A stretch of 64,000 nt of DNA, taken from the NCBI GenBank assembly GCA_012103255.1, contig WLXD01000003.1:515984-579983 (forward strand). Direction: 5' to 3'. Shown piece by piece: positions 7,463-64,000 of the stretch. How positions within the stretch are numbered: the stretch's first letter is position 1; the number at the start of each line of letters is the position of its first letter. Position numbers and translations under genes: made by a program. This stretch comes from Acidobacteriota bacterium (GTDB taxonomy: Bacteria > Acidobacteriota > UBA890 > WLXD01). Below the pieces are notes generated by a model. That model searched no databases. It worked only from the letters and a program-made list of their open reading frames with translations, and was not told where the DNA came from.

Positions 7463-10097
<2,635 letters not shown>

Positions 10098-10119
10098 CGG
10101 TTCTCCGTCCGCGGCGTGC

Positions 10120-10476
10120 CTAGCCGTTGAAAGCGATCATGTCGGCGTTGAGGGCCTGCGGATCCATCATGGTGCCGCTGAAGTTGACCTGCTCGAAGTA
10201 GTCGAGGAATCCGGCCGCCTTCGCGGACGCCTCGAGCTCATCGCTCATCGCCTTGTTCGGGAACTTCCAAATGGCCATGTAACGATAGTCAATCCGCTCC
10301 GCGCCGTCGTTGTCGTTGATCGCCACCGTCATCACCTCGCCGCCCTTCTCGAACGTGTCCATCAAGAGGGGCACGACCTTCTGTTCGAAGATTGCGGCGC
10401 GCTCTTCCTTGGAGAGCGCGAGCCAGGCAGCTCGCGGCTTCCAGATCTCGGTCAGAACGTATCCAGCGTCGCTCAT
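10120..10476 (-). CDS. Small conserved protein, likely dimeric alpha-beta barrel
   Basis: I place the start at the ATG at 10476, which follows GGAGG at five bases and gives MSDAGYVLTEIWKPRAAW; the frame extends ten codons upstream without support. The 118-residue protein alternates strands and helices (YVLTEIWKP; a helix LSKEERAAIFEQKVVPLL; MTVAINDND; YRYMAIWKFP; helix DELEASAKAAGFLDYFEQV), as in small ferredoxin-like barrel proteins such as NIPSNAP or DUF6616-like families. No catalytic motif is apparent. It lies upstream of, and in the same direction as, the kinase gene, 22 bases away, so they may be co-transcribed. Confidence 0.7.
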   Translation of the reverse strand: MSDAGYVLTEIWKPRAAWLALSKEERAAIFEQKVVPLLMDTFEKGGEVMTVAINDNDGAERIDYRYMAIWKFPNKAMSDELEASAKAAGFLDYFEQVNFSGTMMDPQALNADMIAFNG

Positions 10477-10527
10477 GGGTCCTCCGTACGTTTCAGCTTC
10501 GGCCACAGTCTATCGGCGGAATACCAT

Positions 10528-50034: not shown

Positions 50035-50391
50035 ATGACACCTCGACCCCAGGCTGACGGCCTTGGCCCCACACCCAGTTCACTGACTCTGGTAACTGTG
50101 CAGATTCTGGTGAGCCTCGGTCGCGGGCCCATGCACGGGTATGGCATCAAGCTGGACATCGAAGAACGCACCGACGGTGCCATGACTCTCGGCTCCGGAA
50201 CGCTCTACCAGGCGATGCAGCGTCTCGAGAAGCAGGGGCTCGTTCAGTCTTCGGTCGCCCAGGAGCCAGGCGGACGTCGCGGGCGCGTGTACGAACTCGA
50301 GCCGCTCGGCCGCGATGTACTCGAACGCGAGCTCGAGCTGATGCAGCGCACCGTCGCGTTCGCCGCGGCTGGCTCGGAGTCGCCGGCATGA
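50035..50391 (+). CDS. PadR-family transcriptional regulator
   Basis: A 118-residue PadR protein: LTLVTVQILVSLGRGPMHGY, recognition region GSGTLYQAMQRLEKQGLV and wing GGRRGRVYELEPLGRDVL, then a C-terminal helix. I prefer ATG 50035, nine bases after GGAG; an ATG at 49984 would match a leaderless start but adds a polar 17-residue extension. It overlaps the ADOP gene by ATGA and is preceded by three phased repeats that are its likely operators. Confidence 0.9.
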   Translation: MTPRPQADGLGPTPSSLTLVTVQILVSLGRGPMHGYGIKLDIEERTDGAMTLGSGTLYQAMQRLEKQGLVQSSVAQEPGGRRGRVYELEPLGRDVLERELELMQRTVAFAAAGSESPA

Positions 50392-53093
50392 GCGTCTCCG
50401 CACCCTCTCCGTTGCGTGGCCGACTCGGTCTGGAGCTTCGATTCTTCCGGCTCTTGATTCGGATCTATGGCGCTGGGTTCCGCGACCGGTATGAGGAAGA
50501 ACTCGTTTCGTTCTTCTGCCGCGACCGCGTGCGCGATCGCTATGCCGGCGTCGTGGGGACGCTCAGCTTCTGGCGTTTGACCCTGCGCGATCTCGCGGCC
50601 ACGGCTGCTCGCGAGCGGGCGATCGCCGGGCGCGAGAAATGGCGGGCCGAAACCGTCTTCCAGGACATCGGGTTCGCCCTCCGCCAGATCAAGGCGGATC
50701 CCGGCTTCTCGATCACGGCGATCTTCATCCTGGCTGTCGCGATCGGCGCCAGCACGGCGGTGTTCAGCGCCGTGAACGGGGTGGTCCTTCGCCCGCTGCC
50801 CTACCCCGAACCCGACAGCCTCTATCGCGTCTTCACGCGCTTCTTGCCCGAGTCGGGCTATGACTTCGAACAGTTCACACCCTCGCCGCGGGAGATCGTT
50901 GCGTACAGCGACGCCACCGAAGCGCTCGTGGACGTCGGCCTGTTCGACGGTTTCTCTCTCACGTTCACCGCCGAAGGTCTGGATCCTACGAGGCTGTCGG
51001 CGGTCGGGCTGGACGACCGCATGATGAACGTCCTCGGCGTACATGCGGAAATCGGCCGCCGCTTCGGCGCCGAGGACATGCTGGGCAAAGCGACCTTCAC
51101 CACGGTGCTCGCGCCGGTGGCGCTGCTCAGCCATCGTCTATGGGTCGACCAATACGGTTCTGACCCCGCGATCGTCGGCCAGACAATGACTCTCGATGGG
51201 AGCATCACCGAGATCATCGGTGTGATGCCCGCCGGGTTCAGCTTCCCGTCGCCGGACACCGATATCTACGTTCCGTATCCCGTGGATCGCGTCGACCCGG
51301 GCGACTGGGGATGGCACGGCATCAGCGCCATCGGTCGCCTCGCCGACGGCGTGACGATAGAACAAGCCAGGGAAGAGCTCGCTGCACTCAATGCCCGCTG
51401 GCGCGAGGAATTCGGACACCCGCAGGAGGGCCACTTCCTTTACCTGGAAGAGCTGCACGGCTCCCTGATCGGAGACGCGCGCGAAGCTCTATGGATGTTG
51501 ATGGCCGCCGTGCTCCTGGTGCTCACCATCGGAGCCGTGAACGTGGCCAGTCTCTTGCTGGCGCGCGGAGAAACCAGGGCCAGCGAGATCCGCTTGCGAA
51601 TGGCGCTCGGTGCCGGCCGGGCGCGATTGATCCGCCAGATGCTCACCGAAAGCACGGTGCTGGCCGTCTCAGCAACTGTGCTCGGAGTGGGTTTGGCGGG
51701 ACTCGGCCTCGACGCCGTGCTTGCTGTGAATCCGCGTGCACTCCCGCGGATGGACGGCATCGCGATCGATACCACCGTCCTCGGATTCTCTCTGCTCGCC
51801 TGCGCGGGCACGGCCCTGGTCTTCGGCCTGGCGCCCGCCGTACAGGCGAGTCGCGCCTCGATGTCCGAACGGACCTCCGCAGACGGTGCGGCGCGCAAGC
51901 GGTTGCGTAGCCTGCTCGTGTCCACTGAGGTGGCGATCAGCGTCGTTGTTGTGCTCAGCGCAGGGCTCGTCGTGCGCAGCTTCACGCACCTGTCGCAGCT
52001 CGACGCGGGTTTCAACTCGGAGGGCCGAATCACCTTTGGCATGTACCTCCCCGAGCCGACGTATCCGACGAACGAGGAAGTGCGCATCGGGGTCACGCGA
52101 CTGGTTGACGAATTGCGCGCCACGCCGGGGGTAACAGGTGTGGCGTTTACCTCAGCTCTCCCCATCAGTGGCCCCACGGCCTATCCGGACTTCTACGTCC
52201 AAGGTCGACCTGAGCCGGCTCCGGGCGAACGGCGGAGCAGCGCGCAAACCATCGTTGCGACTCCGGGCTACATGAACACCATGGGTATCGACGTGCTCGC
52301 AGGTCGAGCGTTCGAGGCCACCGACACGGTCAACGCGCCACCCGTGGCGATCTTCAACCAGACTGCTGTGGACACGTACTGGCCCGGGGAAAATCCGGTC
52401 GGAGATTTCGTCCAGATCGCTGCCGCAGACGCCCCGTGGATCGAGGTTGTCGGCGTGATCGAGGACGTCCGGACCGAGGGCCTTGATCGCGAGATCCAGC
52501 CGCAGCTCTATCTGCCGTTCGAGCAAGAACAGGGGTTCTGGCAGGCCACGAGCCGGATCGGGTCGTTCGTGATCCGGACTCCCGGCGATCCCACTCAATT
52601 GGTCCCCGGCGCGCGCGCCGCCGTCGCCGCCATCGACCCGAATTTGCCGCTCGAGAACATCCGTACCGCTGAGGACCTCGTGGCTCGGTCACTTGCCGGC
52701 CCACGCCTCATCACAGGGTTACTTGGCGGCTTCGCCGGAATCGCGCTGCTGCTCGCGCTGGTCGGCGTGTACGGCATTGTGTCGCACTCCGTAGCCCGAC
52801 GAACCCGCGAGATCGGCATCCGCCAGGCCCTGGGTGCTGGACGCACCCGCGTGCTCTGGATGATGGTGCGCGAAGGAGCCGCTCCGGCCTTTGTCGGCCT
52901 CGGTATCGGGCTCGCGGCCGCCTTCGTGGTCACGGAAGCGCTCACGGATCTGCTCTACCAGGTCAGCCCGCGCGATCCCGCGACGTTCGTTGCCTTGCCC
53001 ATCGCACTCGCCGGCGTCGCCGTATTCGCGTCGTGGATCCCATCGCGCCGCGCCACCCGCGTGACCCCCGTCGAAGCCCTACGCTCCGAATAG
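50388..53093 (+). CDS. ADOP-type FtsX/MacB permease
   Basis: A 901-residue permease. The prefix domain (about 15-80) contains LLIRIYGAGFRDRYEEELV. First anchor near 108-128 (SITAIFILAVAIGASTAVFS), MacB core (WVDQYGSDPAIVGQTMTL), FtsX1 about 365-490 (TIGAVNVASLLLARGETRAS), second anchor near 515, second core (YPDFYVQGRPEPAPGE), FtsX2 about 770-895 (RRTREIGIRQALGAGRTRVL). Translationally coupled to padR. It ends 22 bases before a convergent, truncated relative. Confidence 0.92.
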   Translation: MSVSAPSPLRGRLGLELRFFRLLIRIYGAGFRDRYEEELVSFFCRDRVRDRYAGVVGTLSFWRLTLRDLAATAARERAIAGREKWRAETVFQDIGFALRQIKADPGFSITAIFILAVAIGASTAVFSAVNGVVLRPLPYPEPDSLYRVFTRFLPESGYDFEQFTPSPREIVAYSDATEALVDVGLFDGFSLTFTAEGLDPTRLSAVGLDDRMMNVLGVHAEIGRRFGAEDMLGKATFTTVLAPVALLSHRLWVDQYGSDPAIVGQTMTLDGSITEIIGVMPAGFSFPSPDTDIYVPYPVDRVDPGDWGWHGISAIGRLADGVTIEQAREELAALNARWREEFGHPQEGHFLYLEELHGSLIGDAREALWMLMAAVLLVLTIGAVNVASLLLARGETRASEIRLRMALGAGRARLIRQMLTESTVLAVSATVLGVGLAGLGLDAVLAVNPRALPRMDGIAIDTTVLGFSLLACAGTALVFGLAPAVQASRASMSERTSADGAARKRLRSLLVSTEVAISVVVVLSAGLVVRSFTHLSQLDAGFNSEGRITFGMYLPEPTYPTNEEVRIGVTRLVDELRATPGVTGVAFTSALPISGPTAYPDFYVQGRPEPAPGERRSSAQTIVATPGYMNTMGIDVLAGRAFEATDTVNAPPVAIFNQTAVDTYWPGENPVGDFVQIAAADAPWIEVVGVIEDVRTEGLDREIQPQLYLPFEQEQGFWQATSRIGSFVIRTPGDPTQLVPGARAAVAAIDPNLPLENIRTAEDLVARSLAGPRLITGLLGGFAGIALLLALVGVYGIVSHSVARRTREIGIRQALGAGRTRVLWMMVREGAAPAFVGLGIGLAAAFVVTEALTDLLYQVSPRDPATFVALPIALAGVAVFASWIPSRRATRVTPVEALRSE

Positions 53094-53115: not shown

Positions 53116-54945
53116 CTAGTCGGCCACCAACAACGCCGCTGGGTTGATACGGGCTGCTCGCAAGAGCGGCGCGAGACTCGCACCGACGGCGACTGCGCAG
53201 ATCAGAACCAGGGCGACCCCGATCGTGAGCGGATCGGCCGCAGTCGTCTCATACAGCAGGCTCTCGAAGGTGCTCCACGCCGCCAGGGCCAAGCCGAGGC
53301 CGACCCCGAGACCAACCGCTACGACCCGGGCAATCCGAACCGTCATCGTGCGCACGACACGGTCCGGCGCCGCCCCCACCGCCAGTCGGATGGCGATTTC
53401 ACGTCGTTGCCGAAGCACCACAAGGCTCATCACCGAGTAGACACCCGCCGCCGCGAGCACCAGCGACAGCGCGGCAAGGACACCCAGCATCGAACTCAAG
53501 GCGCGGCGCTCCCCGAGGGAGTCGTCCACGGCCTGGTCGAACGTCTGGGCTCCGAGGATCGGGACGGCCGTGTCCACTTGCCACACAGCCTGTTTGATCT
53601 CCGCGAGCGCAATGATCGGGTCCCGAGAGAGTCGCACGGCCAGGTGCATCCCCACTTGCGGCGAGGCTGCGAACGGAATGTAGAGAGCGGGTTCCGGCTC
53701 TGCCTCCAGTTGGTGTTGGCGCACGTCAGATACCACCCCGAGAACCTGCAATTCAGGTCCATCCGCCTCGTACAGGCGGATGGTTGATCCGACCGCTGCG
53801 CCGGTATCGTCCCAATGTTTGCGGGCGAGGGCGGCGTTGATCACCGCAACACCTCGGCCGTCAGTCGAATCAAACGATCGCCCGGCCACAAGAGACTCGC
53901 CGACGGCATCGTGGTACCCGGTCGAGACGATACGAAAGCCGACGAACGTAGCACCGCCATCGGCCGGTGGCTCCATCCCATCGACGTGGTAAGGGAGCGA
54001 CCAGTTCTCCAGGGTCATTGGTCGGATCTGACTTGCACCGGCCGCGACGACACCCGGCAGGGCGTCGATCCGGCTGAGTACATCGTCGTAGTAGGCGACA
54101 CGGGACTCGGGCTCGTCGTAGCGGCTCTCGAGCGGGCTCAGCTGCATCAGCACCACCGCGCTCGAGTCGAAGCCGGGATCGATCGCAGCGACGCGCTCGG
54201 CGCTCCTCACGGCCAGCCCCGCTCCGATCAAGACCACCAGTGCCGTCGCGACCTGCGAGCCGATCAACAGATCGCGCGAGCGCGACGAGCCGCCACGCGC
54301 TCGACGTAGGACCCGACGGGCCGGCAGCACTCCACAAACAAGACCGACCGCAAGGGCAAGGATCAGCGCGAACGCCAGCGTCGCCGCCCGGAGTTCGGGA
54401 GCGTCACCAGGGACATCGAGCTGAGCGCCGAGCCAGGGCGCGATGTAGATCACCCCCGGCAACGCGATGGCGAAGCCAGTGAGCGACAGCAACGTGCTCT
54501 CCAGCAGCAACTGTCGGTGAACCCCGGTTCGCGACGCCCCCACCGCCTGTCGCACCTCGAATTCAGAACGGCGACGGCCCCAGCGGGCGTAGAGCAAATT
54601 CACGACGTTGACGCACGACAACAGGAGCACGCCCGCCGCCGCGGTCCAAAGCAGGGAAAGGAGTCGTCCAGCCGACCCTGAGACAGCATCAGCGAGCGTC
54701 ACGACACGAGCACCATCCACCGAATACCGCACGAGGTCATCTGTGACGAGGCCCTGCGCCGCGATCTTCAGTTCCGCCGTCGAGGCATCGACATCCCATC
54801 CGTCACGAAGCGTCCCCACCATGCGCAGGAAGGCGCCGTCCTGCCCCTGTGGCAGCGGAATCCAAGAATCCCGCCCGGCACCGAGGAGCGGTCGGAAGTC
54901 GCGATGCATGACTCCGACAACGACGCGTTCCGAGAACCCGCCCCC
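53116..54945 (-). pseudogene. 5'-truncated ADOP permease remnant
   Basis: The frame is open from 54945 and encodes the end of a MacB core (FSERVVVGVMHRDFRPLLG, then SWIPLPQG), FtsX1, a second core and FtsX2 (LRQRREIAIRLAVGAAPDRV), finishing normally. Compared with the 870-900 residue relatives, the prefix domain, first membrane anchor and about half of the first core are missing. Immediately upstream is the 3' end of a padR gene, so roughly 250 codons have been lost between them. The remaining 1.8 kb has no internal stop, so the loss may be recent. An ATG at 54909 is inside the domain. Confidence 0.8.
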
Positions 54946-55151: not shown

Positions 55152-55601
55152 ATGGGATTCCCAGCGCTCAAGCCGCACGATGATAAGGAACACCCACGCG
55201 GCGACCCCACGCCATCCGTGCAGTGGCATCCGGAGGTACGCCGATCCTACCCACGCTATGACGTCCAGTGGCAGGTCGCCATGCAGGCAGAAGGGTCATC
55301 GGAGACGATTCGCGGGCTCGCCGTGAACATCTCGAGAGGCGGCTGTCTGGTGCGAACGGCTGACGAACTCAATCCGGACCGCCGGCACCTGATCGTCTTC
55401 CTCCCTCGCGGGGACGCCACTCTCCTCACCGGGCCGACGTGCCCGCACTGCGGAGCTGGCGGCATCCGACTTCGCCCACGATCCGCGTGGGCCAGAGTTC
55501 TCAGACAGGGGCGCGGTGGCGGAGGTTGGGCCTCCGCGATGGAGTTCGAGTCACTACTCGAGCTTGGCGAAGATCAGGAGGCAGAGGAGCCAGCACGGTG
55601 A
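55152..55601 (+). CDS. PilZ-domain protein with CxxC insertion
   Basis: A 149-residue protein preceded by an excellent AGGAGGT four bases before the ATG. The c-di-GMP-binding motifs are visible: RRSYPR (RxxxR, about 30-35) and NISRGG (about 59-64). After the core strands is an unusual CPHCGAGG segment (about 97-104), absent from ordinary PilZ domains, then ARVLRQ and AMEFES strands. Expected to bind c-di-GMP in the cytosol. Its stop overlaps the next gene's GTG (GTGA). The pilus/signalling genes follow within 1 kb. Confidence 0.83.
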   Translation: MGFPALKPHDDKEHPRGDPTPSVQWHPEVRRSYPRYDVQWQVAMQAEGSSETIRGLAVNISRGGCLVRTADELNPDRRHLIVFLPRGDATLLTGPTCPHCGAGGIRLRPRSAWARVLRQGRGGGGWASAMEFESLLELGEDQEAEEPAR

Positions 55602-55984
55602 CGTATCGATCGTTCGATCTCGGAAATCTGGCAGCTTCGCGGTTCATTTCCGCAGAGAGTCCAACCAACTCGCGCGCCGTGAGCGGAGGGACGCGGCCCG
55701 ACGGGGAGCGTGCGATGGGCAGCGACCGGGAAACAAGAATCCACGCAGCGGCAACTACCGTTTCACTCGTGGGGCTCGTGATCACCGCCGGTTTCTACCG
55801 CACGGCGATACCAATCATGGTCGCGTCAGGGGCTGTAGCCGCAATGGCCGTGCTGCCGTGGGCGTTGCGGGCCGGCTTTCGCTACGGAGCCAGGCGCGGC
55901 GTCGAGGCGGCCATCGAGAACATGGCGCTCGCCGACTACCGCCGGAAGGCAGATTCGAGCGGGGAGCCGTCGTCGGATAGGTAG
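55598..55984 (+). CDS. Small membrane protein coupled to PilZ
   Basis: From GTG 55598 (VTYRSFDLGNLAASRFI) the protein has 128 residues. Residues about 50-90 are hydrophobic and form one or two helices (ATTVSLVGLVITAGFY, IPIMVASGAVAAMAVLPWAL), followed by a basic/acidic tail (RYGARRGVEAAIENMALADY). No family recognised. The GTGA overlap with the PilZ gene suggests a joint role. Its 3' end overlaps the convergent XRE gene by 49 bases. Confidence 0.6.
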   Translation: MTYRSFDLGNLAASRFISAESPTNSRAVSGGTRPDGERAMGSDRETRIHAAATTVSLVGLVITAGFYRTAIPIMVASGAVAAMAVLPWALRAGFRYGARRGVEAAIENMALADYRRKADSSGEPSSDR

Positions 55985-56295
55985 CGCAGCGCAGTCCTCA
56001 GTCCCTCAAGGTCGAGGTGACTCCCGGCGAGCTTCACGACCTGTGCGCCCAGTGCCAGCCGTTGCCACAGCGCGCGATCTGTCTGAAGCGCATCGGCGAT
56101 ATCGCCCGTCGTCTCCAAAGAGGGAATCACCAGCCCCGCTTCGATCCTCGAGAGGTACGAGGCGCTCTTCCCGATACGCTCCGCCAGTCGGGCCTGATCC
56201 ATGCCCACTTCGCGGCGTCGCGCGGCGACCGCGCGACCCAGGTCCGCAAGAATCTCGTGCTCTGCCAAGCTGCCCTCCGTAGCGCGCTCGGCCAC
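55936..56295 (-). CDS. XRE-family transcriptional regulator
   Basis: A 119-residue protein with an HTH_3 domain at about 17-75: LGRAVAARRREVGMDQARLA, ERIGKSASYLSRIEAGLVIP, SLETTGDIADALQTD. The C-terminal 40 residues (KLAGSHLDLEGLRTALRYLS) may bind a ligand or dimerise. The start is GTG. It follows the hybrid kinase gene on the same strand. The intergenic region has a TGCATG/TGCA-rich sequence that could be its operator. Confidence 0.85.
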   Translation of the reverse strand: MAERATEGSLAEHEILADLGRAVAARRREVGMDQARLAERIGKSASYLSRIEAGLVIPSLETTGDIADALQTDRALWQRLALGAQVVKLAGSHLDLEGLRTALRYLSDDGSPLESAFRR

Positions 56296-56414: not shown

Positions 56415-58940
56415 TCACACGGCCTGATCGAACAACTCTGCGTCGGAACCGACGAAGCGACGTACCGCGGCCTCGAGTTCGGGCCGACGCACCGGCTTGG
56501 TCAGGAACGCTGTCATGCCGGCTTCCAGACACTCCACACGGTCCTCCGCGCGAGCTCGGGCCGTGAGCGCGAGTACGGGCGTGTCCGCGTCGAGAGTCTC
56601 ACCAGCTCGAATCCGACGAACGGCCTCGAGCCCATCCATGACCGGCATGTGAACGTCCATCAGCACCAGGTCGAAGTGGCCGGCCTGCATGCACTCGATT
56701 CCGACTCGCCCGTTGTCGGCGACCTCGACCTCGCACCCCATCTGCCCCAGAAGTCGCTTCGCGACCATCTGGTTGACGGCGTTGTCCTCCACCACGAGAA
56801 CTCGTGCGGTCACCGAGTCCGACTGTCTCGCCGGTACCTCCTCGACCCGCGGCCGTGTCTCGTCGCTGACCATCGCAAGCGCGCGATAGAGCTCCGCCGT
56901 CCGGACTGGTTTCGGAACATGAGCAACGAATAGCCCGCGCTCAGGCTTGCCCATGGCGTCAGGGCCGACGGAACTCAGCGCGACAACCGGTAGCTCCGGA
57001 TGACGTGCACGAACTTCGCGTGTGAATTCGAACCCGTCGACGTCAGGCATCTGGATGTCAGTGAGAACCACGTCGAATGTCCCCTTCTGCAACAACTCCA
57101 GGCCCTCGGCTGCGCCGGAGGCCAGAGTGACCTCACACCGTGCACGCGCCAACTGCGTCGCCAGGATCTGCCGATTCGCGTCGTTGTCGTCCACGGCAAG
57201 GACGCGAAGACCACGCTGCGGGAGTACACGCACATCGTTGTCGGACTCGCAGACTGCGAGCGACAGCGAGAAGTAGAACTCGGAGCCGAGCGCCGGGCGA
57301 CTCGTGGCATCGAGCTCTCCTCCCATCATTCCCACGAGCTGGCGGCTGATCGCCAGGCCTAGCCCGGTGCCACCAAAGCGGCGCGTAGTCGATGAGTCAG
57401 CCTGCGCGAAGGACTCGAAGATTCGTTCTCGCGTGGCCGCGTCGAATCCCATTCCGGTATCGCGGACGCAGAAACTGACCCGGTCGGCCTCGGCCACGAG
57501 TCGCACGGCCACTTCACCCTGTTCGGTGAACTTGATCGCGTTGCTTAGCAAGTTGGCCAGGACCTGACGGAGGCGCACCGAGTCGCCCATGACGCGCCCC
57601 GGCACGTTCTCGCGGATATCGACGATCATCTCCAGACCCTTGTCATGGGCCTGGCTGGCGAACATTGCGGCCACCTGTTCCACCGCTTCGGGCAGATCGA
57701 ACGGTGCCTCTTCCAGGTCGAGCTTGCCTGCTTCGATCTTCGAAAAATCGAGGATGTCATTGATCACGCCGAGCAGGAGGTCAGCGCAGCTGGCAATCGT
57801 CTGGACGCAGCGTCGTTGCTCCGAATCCTCGACCGTTTCGATGAGCACATCTGACATTCCGATGATGCCGTTCATCGGAGTGCGGATTTCGTGACTCATA
57901 TTGGCAAGGAAATCGCTCTTGGCCTGATTTGCCTGCTCGGCCACCTCGCGCGCCATCTCGACCGCGCGGTGTGCTTCGTAGGCATCCGTAATGTCTTCGA
58001 CGATCCCATCCATGTACTCGAGATTGCCGGCGGCATCGCGCACGCAGTGCGCGCTGATCTGGGCCCAGAATTCCCGGCCATCGCGTGCGCGTAAGCGCGT
58101 ACGGTGTGCCACATCGTCCTTCTCGGCGAGCGCCTCCACGAGTTCGCGTCGGCCATCCGGGTCCGCGTACAGTTGAGAGATCGCCACTTCGCCCATCTCC
58201 TCGATGCTGTCGTACCCGAAGAGACGGAGCGCTGCGCCGTTGGCGAGCACCATACGTCCCCCGTCCTTGGCGCTAGTCCGGTAGACCCCCACCGGGAGAT
58301 TCCGCAGCAGTTCGTTGAACTGGCGCTGAGCCGCAGCTCGCTCGCGCTCGGCGGCAACAACAGCGGAAATGTCGTGGAACACCGTGATCTCCCCAGGCTC
58401 GGGGGATTCACGCACGAGGATCGGTGCGACCTCCTGGCGATAGTGTCTCGCCTCCCCCTCGACGGTCGCCTCGAGCCGCCCGCTGTCTGCGTCATAGCTC
58501 GTGGCGCTGTGATCGAGCAGCGAACGGAGCGTCGTGCCCCGCGCCGCCGCGAGTCGGGAGCCGATCAGCCGTTCTGCGGCGGGATTCATGTCGAGGATTC
58601 GATCCCGACCGTCTGCAAGAAAGACGGGCGCTCCAAGCGCCGCCACGATGCGCGAGCGCAGGCCATAGCGATCGACGCGTCTCTGCTGTTCGCCCAGCAG
58701 GGCCATGATCACCACCGCCGTCAAGGCCATCACGAAGGCATGCTGACTTGCCGACCAATCGATGTAGCCGAGGCTCTGCAGCAACAGGGCGCACCATGGC
58801 GCGAGGAACATCGCGATTGCTGCGCTCGTGTCGCGCCGGCTCTGACGCCGCGCAATACTGCCGGCGCCGAACACGTAGATACCCACCGCCACCGGAAGCG
58901 CGGCGAAGCCCATTCCATGGATCAATACAGAGTCGAACAT
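56415..58940 (-). CDS. Hybrid sensor histidine kinase with two receiver domains
   Basis: The 841-residue protein has three membrane helices in the first 85 residues, PAS domains at about 95-190 and 210-335 ([31 protein letters not shown]), a HisKA domain with [10 protein letters not shown], HATPase_c with [15 protein letters not shown] and [10 protein letters not shown], then two receivers: about 590-705 ([16 protein letters not shown]) and about 720-835 ([22 protein letters not shown]). It has no Hpt domain, so it needs a separate phosphotransfer protein; one is encoded at 60568. It follows the pilin-like genes on the same strand, 18 bases after the last of them. Confidence 0.95.
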
Positions 58941-58958
58941 TTGTTGCGATCCTTGTCG

Positions 58959-59420
58959 TCAATGGTTCATGTAGAGATAGAGAGTCCGCCGATTCCGGAC
59001 AACGCCGCCACTCCACTGGTCGCGGATGGCGTCCAGGATCTCGGGGTTGTCGTCGGCTCGGATCATTAGTCCGTGGCGCAGTCGCTGGCGACGCCACCGG
59101 TACTCGACATCGCTGCGCTCGAAGTCGACACCCGCCAATAGTTCGTTGAGCTCGGGAGGGCGGCGGCGCCAGCGACGGGTGCGTGGATATTCGCCGGAAT
59201 CGAGACGGTACTGATCCGCCGCCTCGAAGATCGCGTCAGCGTCTCCCAGAGCTCGCGCCACTTGCGCTTTGGTGATTCCGCTAGTGAGCACGGGAACGGC
59301 GATGTTGGCGAGAATACCGATGATCGCCAGCGCGATCATCAACTCGACCAGCGAAAACCCGGCGTCCGGGTCATGCTCCGCAACTACCACGCTCCTCCGG
59401 CTCGCCTCAGCCGCGCGCAT
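58959..59420 (-). CDS. Type IV pilin/pseudopilin-like protein
   Basis: From ATG 59420 (behind GAGGTG) the protein has 153 residues. A leader of 26 residues ends at the prepilin site DAG-FSLVELMIALAII, with G-F cleavage and Glu at +5. The hydrophobic N-terminal helix (ALAIIGILANIAVPVL) would pack in a filament. The globular part shares ALGDADAIFEAADQYRLDSG with its neighbour. Cys residues for the usual pilin disulfide are absent. It overlaps the previous pilin gene by 14 bases. Confidence 0.9.
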   Translation of the reverse strand: MRAAEASRRSVVVAEHDPDAGFSLVELMIALAIIGILANIAVPVLTSGITKAQVARALGDADAIFEAADQYRLDSGEYPRTRRWRRRPPELNELLAGVDFERSDVEYRWRRQRLRHGLMIRADDNPEILDAIRDQWSGGVVRNRRTLYLYMNH

Positions 59421-59853
59421 GGTGCACCTCATAGAGAAGAACGAGATTGCCGGCACGGATAGAAGTGCCGCTCCACTGCGCGTCGACCGCCGCCAGAGGC
59501 GCCGGGTCGCGTCGGGCAACTATCAACAGGCCATGCCACGACGGCGAGGCGTACCACCGATACCAGACGTCGCCGCGCTCGAACGGTACGTTCTCAAGAA
59601 GACCCTCGAGCGACGCCGGCACCGTCCTCCACGTCGCCGAACTCGGATAGTCGCCGTTGTCGATTCTGTGCCTATTGGCAGCTTTGAAGATGGCGTCGGC
59701 ATCACCGAGAATCGCCGCGGCATCGGCGTTCGTGAGAGCTGCGAGCAGCGAGGGAATCGCAATATTGGCGAGGATCCCGATGACGGAAACCACCAGCATC
59801 AACTCGAGCAAGGTGAACCCGGCGCTGCCTCGAGACTCGGTTGGCGGCCTCAT
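59407..59853 (-). CDS. Type IV pilin/pseudopilin-like protein
   Basis: A 148-residue prepilin with a short leader MRPPTESRGSAG before FTLLELMLVVSVIGILANIA, cleavage between G12 and F13 and Glu at +5. The globular domain has ILGDADAIFKAANRHRIDNG, then WYRWYASPSWHGLLIVARRD. It resembles the pilin downstream over the helix and the DADAIF segment, so the two probably arose by duplication and may be in one filament. It overlaps the upstream gene by ATGA. Confidence 0.92.
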   Translation of the reverse strand: MRPPTESRGSAGFTLLELMLVVSVIGILANIAIPSLLAALTNADAAAILGDADAIFKAANRHRIDNGDYPSSATWRTVPASLEGLLENVPFERGDVWYRWYASPSWHGLLIVARRDPAPLAAVDAQWSGTSIRAGNLVLLYEVHHARG

Positions 59854-60317
59854 TTCAGCGCTCCTTCGACGACGAGCTCGCGACGTGCTTGCCCTTCCTT
59901 GGAGTCGTAGCCGAGCCGCCCGTCGTCACGTGCGATCGACAGACGAAAGTGGTCGTCCGCGAGTCGTTCATAGGTCCAGGTGGGATCGTCGAACGGATTC
60001 TCGAATGTCTGCGGATAGGAACCGCTTGCGTTGCGGTAGGCCTCGATATCGCCCGCAAACAGCTCGAGAGCCTCGAGCGCGTCCACCTCGTCCCTTGCGG
60101 CGTCGATCGATGGCTGGGCGCCGATCCCGACGTTGAACCCCGTGAGGACGACACAGATCGCCATCAACAAGATCGCCAAACCGGCGATACGGCGATCGCT
60201 CTCCTCGGGATCGGCGTCCGATCTGACGGCAGCCGCGACGGCCGCCAGTTCGTCCAGGATCTCCTTTTCCGCTTCAGCCACCAGCCGATTGGGATTGTTC
60301 TCTCTCGAAACTGGCAC
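59850..60317 (-). CDS. Pilin-like membrane protein without prepilin leader
   Basis: A 155-residue protein starting at GTG. Residues about 1-43 are an acidic cytoplasmic helix (EKEILDELAAVAAAVRSDAD), a single membrane helix is at about 44-65 (IAGLAILLMAICVVLTGFNV), and the rest resembles a pilin globular part: LELFAGDIEAYRNASGSYPQ, DDHFRLSIARDDGRLGYDS. There is no G-F/E prepilin site. It is the first gene of the minus-strand set and overlaps the pilin gene. It may be an assembly anchor or adaptor; this is inference. Confidence 0.65.
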   Translation of the reverse strand: MPVSRENNPNRLVAEAEKEILDELAAVAAAVRSDADPEESDRRIAGLAILLMAICVVLTGFNVGIGAQPSIDAARDEVDALEALELFAGDIEAYRNASGSYPQTFENPFDDPTWTYERLADDHFRLSIARDDGRLGYDSKEGQARRELVVEGALK

Positions 60318-60567
60318 TTCCCTATCCCCCCTCGTGAACGCGAACCGACGGCCAGAGGACTATCGACTCAAGTTGTTCAGAATTCTTGTATGTTTGCTTG
60401 CACATGTATGTAATCTAGTGTGCGAACAGTGCTCATAATCGTCTCCGGCAATTGCCTCTTGAAAGACAAAAATGCACATCATCCGTTTTTATTCTTTGTT
60501 AAATCTCGTTAAACCATAATGATGAACAGAATCCATCACATCTGAACAGCAATGGACTGATCCAGAC
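60318..60567. promoter_or_regulatory. AT-rich divergent control region
   Basis: No gene is visible in these 250 bases between the pilin operon and the Hpt gene. The region is notably AT-rich compared with the rest of the window, especially at 60380-60420 and 60470-60530, where GTTAAA occurs twice. TTGCTTGCA at 60394-60402 also occurs upstream of the XRE gene. It must hold promoters in both directions; I cannot assign clean -35/-10 pairs. Confidence 0.4.
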
Positions 60568-60918
60568 ATGGGTACAGAGCAAATCATCGGAATCGATCGA
60601 ACGGCCCTGCGAGCATTCATGCACGACTCGGGACTCGACGACGCCGACATCGCCGAACTGCTGGATGTCTTCCTCGCGGAAGCTCCTGGCCAGATACGTG
60701 CGGTCCAAAAAGCGGCCGCCGCGCGCGATGCTCAGTGTCTCGCGTCCGCGGCTCACGCTCTCAAATCGCCGGCGGCCTTGCTCTGTGCACCACGCCTCGC
60801 CGAGATCCTTTCAGGAATCGAGGAGCAGGCACGCGACGGGGGGATAGCAAGTGGCCACATCATCGACGCAGTCGAGGCAGAAGTCCGACACGTCGCGCGG
60901 CAAACCGTCGACGACTGA
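60568..60918 (+). CDS. Stand-alone Hpt phosphotransfer protein
   Basis: A 116-residue all-helical Hpt domain: DDADIAELLDVFLAEAPGQI, the phospho-accepting His in ASAAHALKSPAALLCAPRL, and a final helix (IIDAVEAEVRHVARQTV). It would shuttle phosphate from the receiver of a hybrid kinase to another receiver. The kinase at 56415 lacks an Hpt and the next gene encodes a receiver, so both partners are adjacent. The end overlaps the ATPase gene by 68 bases if the latter starts at GTG 60851. Confidence 0.92.
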   Translation: MGTEQIIGIDRTALRAFMHDSGLDDADIAELLDVFLAEAPGQIRAVQKAAAARDAQCLASAAHALKSPAALLCAPRLAEILSGIEEQARDGGIASGHIIDAVEAEVRHVARQTVDD

Positions 60919-63139
60919 CGGCTCGGGCAGCCTCCACTGGCTACTCGACGCAGTGGGCGGAGACGCGCGCGGGCTCGAGCCTGCGCCCGACGAGGGGCTG
61001 GAGTCCATCTGGCAGCGCGCGGCGGAGGCGACCGGGCTCACCCGGGCGCAGGTGGCAAAGAGCGTGGCCGCAGCACATGGCCTTGACGTCTGGGATCGTC
61101 GTGCTCCAGAAGCGAAGGCACTCGAGTCGGTCGGCGGTCGCTGGGCCTCCAATCGACGCGTCCTTCCCGTGGAACTGGACGAGCGCACGATCCGGCTGGC
61201 GGTAGCCGACCCCACGGATCTCAACACTGAGCAAGAGATCCGTTTCATGACCGGCCTCGAGCCTGAGTTCGTGATCGCGCCGCCCATGGTGCTGGACAAG
61301 GAGATCGCAGCCCACTACCGACCCGACGACGCTACCGAGGATATAGCCGAGCAGCTCGACGTCAGCGCCCAGGTGAAGCAGCTCGATCGGACCGAGCGCT
61401 CATACGACGTCGGTGCAGCGGATATTGAGGGCGGCCCCGTGGTGAAGCTCTGCAACAAGATCCTTGCCGACGCGATCCAGGTTCGGGCGAGCGACGTTCA
61501 CATGGGCTTCGCGAACGACCAGGGGATCGTGAGGTACCGCGTGGACGGCATCCTCCGCCCGGTTATGGAGATCCCCGGCGCGGTCATGCTCCGCGCGATC
61601 TCCCGAATCAAGGTGATCGGCGGTCTGGACGTGGGAGATCGGCTGAGGCCGCAGGACGGCAGATGCCGCGTGCAGGTCGCCGATCGGACGTACGACTTGC
61701 GGATATCTACGGTGCCTACGCGAGGCACCGAAAAGGCCGTCCTACGAATCCTGGACCCGGCGTCCGCTCCAAGTCTCGAAGGAATCGGGATGCGCCACCA
61801 CGACGACGCGGCGTTCCGCGAGCTCCTACGAAATCGCGAGGGCATCGTGATCGTCACCGGACCAACGGGGTCGGGCAAGACGACCACGCTGTATGCCGCC
61901 CTCGGCCACCTGGCCACTGATGACGTCAACATCATGACGGTCGAAGATCCGGTCGAGTATGAACTCGCCGGTCTCACTCAAATCCAGGTCAATCCGCGCC
62001 AGGGAGTCACCTTCGCGTCGGCGCTCCGCGCGGTGCTGCGCCAGGATCCGGACATCGTGCTCGTGGGTGAAATCCGCGACCTTGAAACGGCGGAGATCGC
62101 CGTTCAGGCCGGACTCACCGGCCACCTTGTGCTTGCGACGCTACACACCAACGACGCGATCGGCTCGATCCGGCGCCTCGCGGAGCTCGGCCTTGACCGG
62201 CCGTCGATCGCCGAGAGCCTGAAGGGCATCGTTGCGCAGCGGCTCGTGCGTCGCCTCTGCAAGGAGTGTCCGGCGCCCATCCCCGGCGACGAAGATGAAG
62301 CGCCTGTCTGCGAACGGTGTGGTGGCACCGGGTACGCCGGACGTGCGCCCGTGAACGAGGTCGTCGCGATCACGCCGGCGCTGGAGGAACTCGTAGTGCA
62401 GAGCGCTCCTCCACGCGAGCTTTATGGCGCTGCCTCCCAGGCCGGGGCCCGCTCGCTGCGCGCCGCGGGGCAGCGCCTGGTGGACGATGGCATCACCTCG
62501 GCAGACGAGCTAGAGCGCGTGTTCGGCACGGACGACGGGATGGGGATTCCAGATCAGGTGCTGGAAACCTCGGACGACGGCGGGCTCGCCCGCTTGCCCG
62601 TCGCCGACCGCGACTCGGGTCAAGCCAGCATGCTGCCGGAGGCAGACGATGCAAGCTCCGTGTCGTCGACGCCTGCGGCGGAGGCGCCGCCTTCCGAGTC
62701 GCCCGACACGCAAGGCTCTCCGGCGGAGGCCGGACGACCGGGATCGGTTCCACGCATCCTCGTCGTCGACGATGACACCGTCGGCAGGCTGATGATCAGC
62801 AAGACCCTGCGAAAACGCGGCTACGAAATCGTCGATGTCGCAGAGGGGCTCGAAGCTATCCAGCGACTCAACTCCGGAGAGTACTTCGACCTTGTCATCA
62901 CTGACCTCGACATGCCGGAACTCAGCGGGCGCGCGCTCCTCGACCTGGTGCGGGCTACACCGGCCGGCAATGAACTCACCGTGATGGTCTTCACGGGCTC
63001 ATCCGATCCGGAAGACGAAGCTCGGTTGCTGTCCGCAGGCGCTGACGACTACATGCGCAAACCCATCCCGCCGGCGCTCTTCATGGCCCGTGTGGACGCT
63101 GCGCTGCGTCGCAGCCACTGGGGCGGACGCGACAGCTAG
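60851..63139 (+). CDS. GspE/PilB-type assembly ATPase with C-terminal receiver domain
   Basis: The 762-residue protein combines a T2SSE N-terminal domain (about 50-155), the secretion ATPase core (about 195-560) and a response-regulator receiver (about 635-755). ATPase motifs are Walker A GPTGSGKTTT, Asp box EDPVEYEL, Walker B DIVLVGEIRD, His box GHLVLATLHTND and a CKEC/CERC zinc site. The receiver shows ILVVDDD, phospho-Asp in LVITDLDMPE, Thr in MVFTGSS and Lys in YMRKPIPP. An Asp/Ser/Pro-rich linker joins them. The GTG start overlaps Hpt; a slightly later start is possible. It would power pilus or pseudopilus assembly, gated by phosphorylation. Confidence 0.93.
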   Translation: MATSSTQSRQKSDTSRGKPSTTDGSGSLHWLLDAVGGDARGLEPAPDEGLESIWQRAAEATGLTRAQVAKSVAAAHGLDVWDRRAPEAKALESVGGRWASNRRVLPVELDERTIRLAVADPTDLNTEQEIRFMTGLEPEFVIAPPMVLDKEIAAHYRPDDATEDIAEQLDVSAQVKQLDRTERSYDVGAADIEGGPVVKLCNKILADAIQVRASDVHMGFANDQGIVRYRVDGILRPVMEIPGAVMLRAISRIKVIGGLDVGDRLRPQDGRCRVQVADRTYDLRISTVPTRGTEKAVLRILDPASAPSLEGIGMRHHDDAAFRELLRNREGIVIVTGPTGSGKTTTLYAALGHLATDDVNIMTVEDPVEYELAGLTQIQVNPRQGVTFASALRAVLRQDPDIVLVGEIRDLETAEIAVQAGLTGHLVLATLHTNDAIGSIRRLAELGLDRPSIAESLKGIVAQRLVRRLCKECPAPIPGDEDEAPVCERCGGTGYAGRAPVNEVVAITPALEELVVQSAPPRELYGAASQAGARSLRAAGQRLVDDGITSADELERVFGTDDGMGIPDQVLETSDDGGLARLPVADRDSGQASMLPEADDASSVSSTPAAEAPPSESPDTQGSPAEAGRPGSVPRILVVDDDTVGRLMISKTLRKRGYEIVDVAEGLEAIQRLNSGEYFDLVITDLDMPELSGRALLDLVRATPAGNELTVMVFTGSSDPEDEARLLSAGADDYMRKPIPPALFMARVDAALRRSHWGGRDS

Positions 63140-64000
63140 TGACGCAGCGAAACTGCGGGGTCCACGTTCCCGGCGTCGCGGGCGGGAAGATACGCCGCCA
63201 GGATCGCAACGAACGCCAGCACCAACGAGGCGGGCAACAGGATCCAAAGGCTCGTGGGCTCGACGCCGAACAGCAGACTCTCGAGAGTCTTCGATAGTGG
63301 ATAGGCGCCGACGATCCCGATACCGAGTCCAAGGACCACCCAAATGAGGTTCTCGCCCACCACCTGTCGTCGGACCGCACCCGCTGTAGCACCGAGAGCG
63401 CGACGAATGGCCATCTCGCGACGACGTTGACGCACGGCATACGCGACGGTGCCGAACACTCCCGCGGCCGCCAACGCCAGCCCCGTGCCGGCCAGCAGGG
63501 CAAGGAGTCCCGCGTGGCAGCGAGGGGCAACAACCGAGTCCGCGATCCGCGCATCCAGAGTCGACACCCAGCCGATTGGCTGGTTCGGGTCGAAGCCCCA
63601 GACCGCCTCCCGGAGTTGTGCTGCCGTGACGCTGCCCGGCGAGCTCGGACGCACGAGAAACTCGATCGTCGGGAAGGTCGAGTGCGCCGCGCGATAAGGC
63701 ACATAGACCTGTGGGAACGGGTCGCGATCGAGCCGACTCTGCTTGTGGCTCGGAAGCACGCCCGCCACCTCCCACCATGGCGCGTCGGCACCGGTGCGGC
63801 CGACCTGGAATCGAGTTCCCAGCGGACTGCGGCCATCCAGAAACCGGTCGACGTACGTCTGATTCACGAGGGCCAGAAAAGCGCCACTGTCGTATTCCTC
63901 CTCCGACGGGATCCGCCCGCCTTCGCCGACCTGCAGACCCAGGACACGGAAATACCCGGCGTCGGCAGTACCCCACCCGATGAAGTCGGGGCCCGCGTCG
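63136..64000 (-). CDS. FtsX/MacB (ADOP-like) permease, C-terminal part
   Basis: The frame is open to the right window edge, so the 5' part is missing. The visible 287 residues contain the end of a MacB core (GYFRVLGLQVGEGGRIP, NQTYVDRFLDGRSPLGTRF) and a complete final FtsX domain with three helices (GLLALLAGTGLALAAAGVFG, RRREMAIRRALGATAGAVRR, LLPASLVLAFVAILAAYLPA) ending DPAVSLRH. It matches the last third of the ADOP permeases in this window. The stop overlaps that of the convergent ATPase gene in a CTAG palindrome. Confidence 0.9.
   Translation of the reverse strand, partial: DAGPDFIGWGTADAGYFRVLGLQVGEGGRIPSEEEYDSGAFLALVNQTYVDRFLDGRSPLGTRFQVGRTGADAPWWEVAGVLPSHKQSRLDRDPFPQVYVPYRAAHSTFPTIEFLVRPSSPGSVTAAQLREAVWGFDPNQPIGWVSTLDARIADSVVAPRCHAGLLALLAGTGLALAAAGVFGTVAYAVRQRRREMAIRRALGATAGAVRRQVVGENLIWVVLGLGIGIVGAYPLSKTLESLLFGVEPTSLWILLPASLVLAFVAILAAYLPARDAGNVDPAVSLRH

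Follow-up and report, generated by a model that had tools for sequence, protein, structure and literature searches.

Chemosensory and two-component routes to the extension motor of the type IV pilus are only partly understood, and the known cases use separate proteins and changes in PilB localization. In the Pil-Chp system of Pseudomonas aeruginosa (PMC12632253), the CheY-like receivers PilG and PilH, fed by a histidine kinase, control the extension motor, and the localization of PilB is the reported target. In Synechocystis (PMC12288463), PixG and other PATAN-receiver regulators act in trans, with the phosphorylated receiver contacting PilB and PilC. Two-component and c-di-GMP input also reaches PilB through FimX-PilZ-PilB and PdeK-PdeR, according to the available part of a 2024 review of PilB control that covers these routes together with PilG (PMC11656802); this input is described there as indirect, via separate proteins, and the REC domain of FimX as devoid of the phosphoacceptor Asp. 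The word "receiver" does not appear in that part of the review, nor is a receiver-fused PilB described in it. The accessible text of Wang et al. 2016 (PMC5013675) places REC among the domains combined with MshEN and gives no gene context, phosphodonor, or function for the combination. We found no description of a receiver-fused pilus motor in the open-access literature; an earlier description elsewhere is possible.

Here, we analyzed a stretch of 64,000 nucleotides of an Acidobacteriota genome (the window) that encodes a PilB/GspE-like assembly ATPase with a C-terminal receiver (PilB-REC). With PilB/GspE ATPases such as Thermus thermophilus PilF (5oiu) and Geobacter metallireducens PilB (5tsh), it shares the motor domain, the catalytic boxes, the tetracysteine, and an MshEN-like N terminus, and it is 41 to 44% identical to the best solved structures. 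In contrast to them, it adds the receiver, on a flexible linker, the c-di-GMP signature is largely missing, and there is no adjoining platform gene. The receiver is a separate protein in Pil-Chp and an unfused, PATAN-containing one in PixG, whereas here it lies within the motor, and its donor would be a hybrid kinase plus an Hpt protein.

The receiver-fused motor and its orthologue

PilB-REC is encoded by an uninterrupted frame of 762 codons (60851-63139, + strand). We placed its start at the GTG at 60851, giving a 68-nt overlap with the upstream gene, although the exact start is uncertain. Pfam recognized MshEN (4.2e-12; residues 87-160, the first part of the model not being covered), T2SSE (3e-121; residues 195-556, at 61433-62518, + strand; 405 bits versus a cut-off of 24.9), and Response_reg (7.6e-23; residues 636-748). 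The motor has, besides the domain itself, all the motifs expected of a T2SSE extension ATPase, that is, Walker A (GPTGSGKTT), the Asp box (VEDPVEY), Walker B (LVGEIRD), the His box (TGHLVLATLHTND), and the tetracysteine pair (CxxC...CxxC), and most of these positions were invariant across 10 fused homologues. With Foldseek, it grouped with PilF/PilB/GspE structures, the best ones mostly at 41 to 44% identity, and among the 60 best-ranked PDB sequences listed, the top-matching stretch never spanned the motor and the receiver together. PilB-REC scored 453 of the 676 bits set as the cut-off of the NCBIfam PilB equivalog and 465 of 630 for GspE. By these scores, it is a member of the PilB/GspE superfamily that belongs to neither equivalog, so that a role in a pilus, rather than in secretion, is suggested by the adjoining pilins (see below).

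In the AlphaFold2 model (18-row alignment), both the motor and the receiver (residues 635-757, at 62753-63121, + strand) were confident, the latter with a (beta-alpha)5 fold, while the linker (residues 561-630, at 62531-62740, + strand) was disordered, with pLDDT values of <50. The active site of the receiver is complete (acid pair D640/D641, phosphoacceptor D685, T715, and K737); together with the fold, these are the features expected of a phosphorylatable receiver. When 36 distinct fused receivers were compared, all had the phosphoacceptor Asp as well as the Lys (36/36), and the Thr position was occupied by Thr or Ser. The intact residues, this invariance, and the confident fold rule out a degenerate receiver. 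Thus, the full ATPase followed by a receiver with all key residues that a first-pass annotation had noticed was borne out by the single frame, Pfam, the residues, and the model. That annotation had delimited the correct ORF, but the unit that belongs together is larger (56415-63139).

Another genome of the same genus (G001, L064) contains a full-length orthologue of PilB-REC, which rules out an assembly join or artifact. Identity between the two proteins was 42% in the N-terminal domain, 74% in the T2SSE motor, 25% in the linker, and 69% in REC. By this comparison, the receiver is kept almost as tightly as the motor, unlike the linker.

Neighboring genes and the proposed phosphorelay

The gene that overlaps the start of PilB-REC (60568-60918, + strand) encodes a stand-alone Hpt protein of 116 aa, with His63 in an HALKS motif (Pfam Hpt, 1e-9). 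Beyond an intergenic region (60318-60567) presumed from its position to hold both promoters, a divergent arm on the opposite strand encodes a membrane protein, two pilins or pseudopilins, and a hybrid histidine kinase. The first pilin (59407-59853, - strand; GFTLLELM) matched Pfam N_methyl (6.6e-6), and its start resembled that of GspG (1.5e-12, short of the family cut-off). The second (58959-59420, - strand; GFSLVELM), for which we chose the ATG at 59420 as the start, also matched N_methyl (1.1e-7) and was aligned with the first and with the pilin of G001. The membrane protein (59853-60317, - strand; 155 aa, a single transmembrane segment) had neither a prepilin cleavage motif nor a Pfam match. 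Its model consists of a transmembrane helix, a long helix, and a four-strand sheet, and its best fold matches were two Thermus pilins (probabilities of 0.94 and 0.93), but given their E value of 0.33, the pilin-like nature of its outer part is a lead only.

The kinase (56415-58940, - strand; 841 aa) contains, as judged by Pfam, motifs, and hydrophobic segments, about three transmembrane segments followed by PAS, HisKA, HATPase, and two REC domains. It has no Hpt domain of its own, and since a separate Hpt gene overlaps that of PilB-REC, the parts complement each other. All the components of a phosphorelay are therefore found together at the locus: HisKA/HATPase, the kinase receivers, an Hpt with its His, and a terminal receiver. 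The CheA, CheW, and MCP genes that would mark a Pil-Chp system were absent by Pfam beside PilB-REC in the window. Given that the kinase arm is divergent from the motor arm, their coexpression is an assumption. The first-pass annotation overlooked the Hpt, hybrid kinase, and pilin genes, which make it possible to read the fusion as part of a pathway.

In G001, PilB-REC, Hpt, the membrane protein, one pilin, and the hybrid kinase are found in the same divergent order. The Hpt proteins were 42% identical, with His63 and Lys66 conserved, the membrane proteins 41%, the pilins 44% (to the first pilin of the window), and the kinases 49%. The flank following PilB-REC differs, with an unrelated ORF in G001 versus a permease-like gene in the window, and the preservation of the Hpt, kinase, pilin, and PilB-REC set despite this difference rules out a chance neighborhood. 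Just past the kinase gene, the window encodes a PilZ-domain protein (55152-55601, + strand) and an HTH regulator (55936-56295, - strand), genes that were not seen on the short G001 contig. Large ABC-permease-like genes (FtsX/MacB type, as judged by eye) lie on both sides of the unit (50388-53093, 53116-54909, and 63136-64000).

There is no PilC/GspF platform or secretin gene in the PilB-REC locus. The T2SSF matches of the whole genome are confined to three sites on contig C1, each with a different ATPase as its neighbor, while PilB-REC is on C4. Similarly, the two T2SSF matches of another carrier of the fusion (G665) correspond to one PilC, located beside a receiver-less PilB on C23, with PilB-REC on C21. 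Given this distance between the T2SSF loci and PilB-REC in both genomes, the platform of PilB-REC is most likely one that serves another motor as well.

Since a kinase, a phosphate shuttle, and pilins adjoin the fused motor, there may be a direct route from sensory input to the motor. We read the locus as a phosphorelay ending on a pilus-assembly motor, running from the kinase through its own REC and Hpt to the motor receiver, and give this reading, which comes from sequence analysis, a probability of about 0.62. The membrane-bound PAS hybrid kinase would autophosphorylate, and the phosphate would pass to the receivers of the kinase itself, then to His63 of the free Hpt, and finally to Asp685 of PilB-REC. 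Phosphorylation of the receiver would alter whether the PilB-like hexamer works, so that the two pilins encoded next to the kinase would be polymerized on signal only. The motor would dock on a platform encoded elsewhere, probably that of the housekeeping type IV pilus, and act as an alternative extension motor; that phosphate switches it on is a guess. We infer which way the phosphate flows, that the platform is shared, and that activity rather than location is controlled. The direct phosphorylation control proposed in the first-pass annotation is well supported, if circumstantially, by the intact receiver and by dedicated phosphodonor genes adjoining it in several arrangements. The further suggestion of that annotation, a receiver that might govern oligomerization, is speculative, so that its interpretation is supported in part. 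Given that the receiver is covalently bound to the motor and that the gene for its likely phosphodonor is a neighbor, the path from signal to motor could be rebuilt from three purified proteins.

Alternatively, the receiver could set the place of the motor and not its turning, with phosphorylation bringing PilB-REC either to a pole or to one specific platform, much as a built-in PilG or PixG would. PilG controls PilB localization in Pseudomonas (PMC12632253), PixG binds PilB1 and PilC and sits at the leading pole (PMC12288463), and the long flexible linker of the model would suit docking no less than allostery. Nothing here separates placement from gating, both of which have been proposed for systems acting in trans, and we regard placement as unlikely, albeit worth serious consideration. 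The lack of a platform gene at the locus would also agree with PilB-REC being mainly a signaling hub or phosphate sink, which reports the state of the motor or drains the relay and builds no pili; in the available part of one study (PMC5544727), Myxococcus xanthus PilB is reported to take part in exopolysaccharide signaling. Such a role is improbable for a protein in which the catalytic boxes of the ATPase are all intact and alongside which pilins are encoded.

A type II-like secretion pseudopilus, instead of a surface pilus, as the product of the motor would be in line with the GspG-like N termini of the pilins and with the slightly better score of the GspE model (465 versus 453 bits for PilB). 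However, neither equivalog cut-off (630 and 676 bits) was reached, the locus contains neither secretin nor platform, and profile matches among solved structures were best to PilF/PilB, making secretion very improbable. Finally, apart from the uncertain start codon, there is nothing to suggest that the fusion is an artifact or the receiver a decayed, functionless domain, and the G001 orthologue, the same architecture in three phyla, the 36/36 Asp and Lys, and the confident receiver fold leave this explanation practically without weight.

Distribution and linkage to phosphodonors

Fused PilB-REC proteins were verified in at least 11 of 396 genomes of the phylum of the window, from at least six families. 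In Planctomycetota (the phylum of L033), 7 of 246 genomes had a match over nearly the full model, six of which were one-frame fusions (that is, at least 6/246). Among Pseudomonadota (the phylum of L008, Stenotrophomonas), 50 of 399 sampled genomes had matches, nearly all over the full model; all of these carriers have genomes of 1.3 to 3 Mb, and their spacing (every third or fourth genome of an even draw) suggests a single class, probably Zetaproteobacteria. No fusion was detected in 289 genomes of the phylum of L021 (Akkermansia) or in 301 of that of L018 (Ardenticatenia) at an E value of 1e-200, a cut-off at which divergent fusions could go unnoticed. Thus, the view that GspE/PilB proteins normally lack a receiver holds for most of them, but these surveys rule out that the fusion is unique to the window genome: at least three phyla share it, and it is common in one lineage of Pseudomonadota. 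A contig search with the whole protein, which matched mostly unrelated receivers, served as the entry point to the other phyla; in a tblastn search of plasmids, no listed record covered 80% of the query. The planctomycete G414, the seventh match above, encodes PilB and a single-domain receiver separately (L202:8271-8693 and 8763-10478), in the same frame and about 70 nt apart, and this pair is a natural unfused counterpart of PilB-REC.

A hybrid kinase was found within 5 kb in 7 of 10 fused loci, and none with tandem receivers or Hpt lay within 5 kb in 29 unfused PilB loci (0/29; Fisher P of 8e-6, to be read with the caveat that the compared loci are related, the controls were not randomly chosen, and flank lengths vary). 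The arrangements differ: HK-REC-REC-Hpt comes next after PilB-REC in families f18 and f47, as does HK-REC in G073, while in a planctomycete (L204) PilB-REC is divergent from a pilin and an HK-REC-REC-Hpt, close to the arrangement of the window. Other fused loci (G354, G069, G244, and several from planctomycetes) showed no clear complete relay nearby, which tells against the proposed reading.

PilB-REC is the first gene of an operon in the Pseudomonadota lineage, where CheW and MCP genes accompany it in 14 of 15 loci (the exception ends 618 bp downstream). CheA-REC follows in 13 of those 14, and in the remaining one the contig stops before that point. Pfam confirmed MCPsignal, CheW, Hpt, HATPase, and REC in example loci; the MCP-like protein of L209 had no Pfam match. 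These operons are nearer to Pil-Chp than the window locus is, and they would represent a chemosensory array acting on the pilus motor as its own output. In L206 to L220 (for example, L209:2889-9517 and L217:3341-10090), the motor takes the apparent place of CheY. Taken as a whole, what we found is better described as a phosphorelay-to-motor unit, which would be a new form of type IV pilus motor control recurring in several phyla.

The c-di-GMP motif and the origin of the fusion

A loose half motif of the c-di-GMP signature was present in 3 of 35 fused versus 87 of 103 unfused proteins, a contrast obtained with a crude regular expression and inflated by the relatedness of the sequences. The strict motif (RLGxx[LVI][LVI]xxG...) was found in 0/35 fused proteins, and by the same expressions the N-terminal domain of the window PilB-REC has neither form; imperfect MshEN motifs can still bind c-di-GMP, according to the available text of PMC5013675. 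Given that the receiver is kept and the c-di-GMP motif mostly lost, an exchange of one input for another is suggested, with the receiver input possibly having replaced c-di-GMP in the fused motors.

In the ATPase tree, which has long branches, the fused proteins clustered (4 label changes versus 20.6 in shuffles), and a single fused clade was not rejected by the AU test (P of 0.386). In the REC tree (110 columns, poorly resolved), the window pair fell apart from most fused receivers and nearer to kinase receivers. The trees are compatible both with a single ancient fusion followed by losses and with repeated fusion events. Tentatively, and with somewhat less than even odds in our estimation, PilB-REC may be an old, patchily kept subfamily in which second-messenger (c-di-GMP) input was swapped for direct phosphoryl input, an alternative motor wired to whatever phosphodonor was available, be it a hybrid kinase with Hpt or an MCP/CheW/CheA array with the motor as CheY.

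Two other features were seen around fused motors. Planctomycete pilins divergent from PilB-REC (L204:11577-12521 and L205:11042-11950) carry a C-terminal 3-keto-disaccharide hydrolase/LamG-like domain. In two families, a membrane protein of 212 to 216 aa with no Pfam match is encoded between PilB-REC and the hybrid kinase (L114:7423-8061 and L116:10390-11040).
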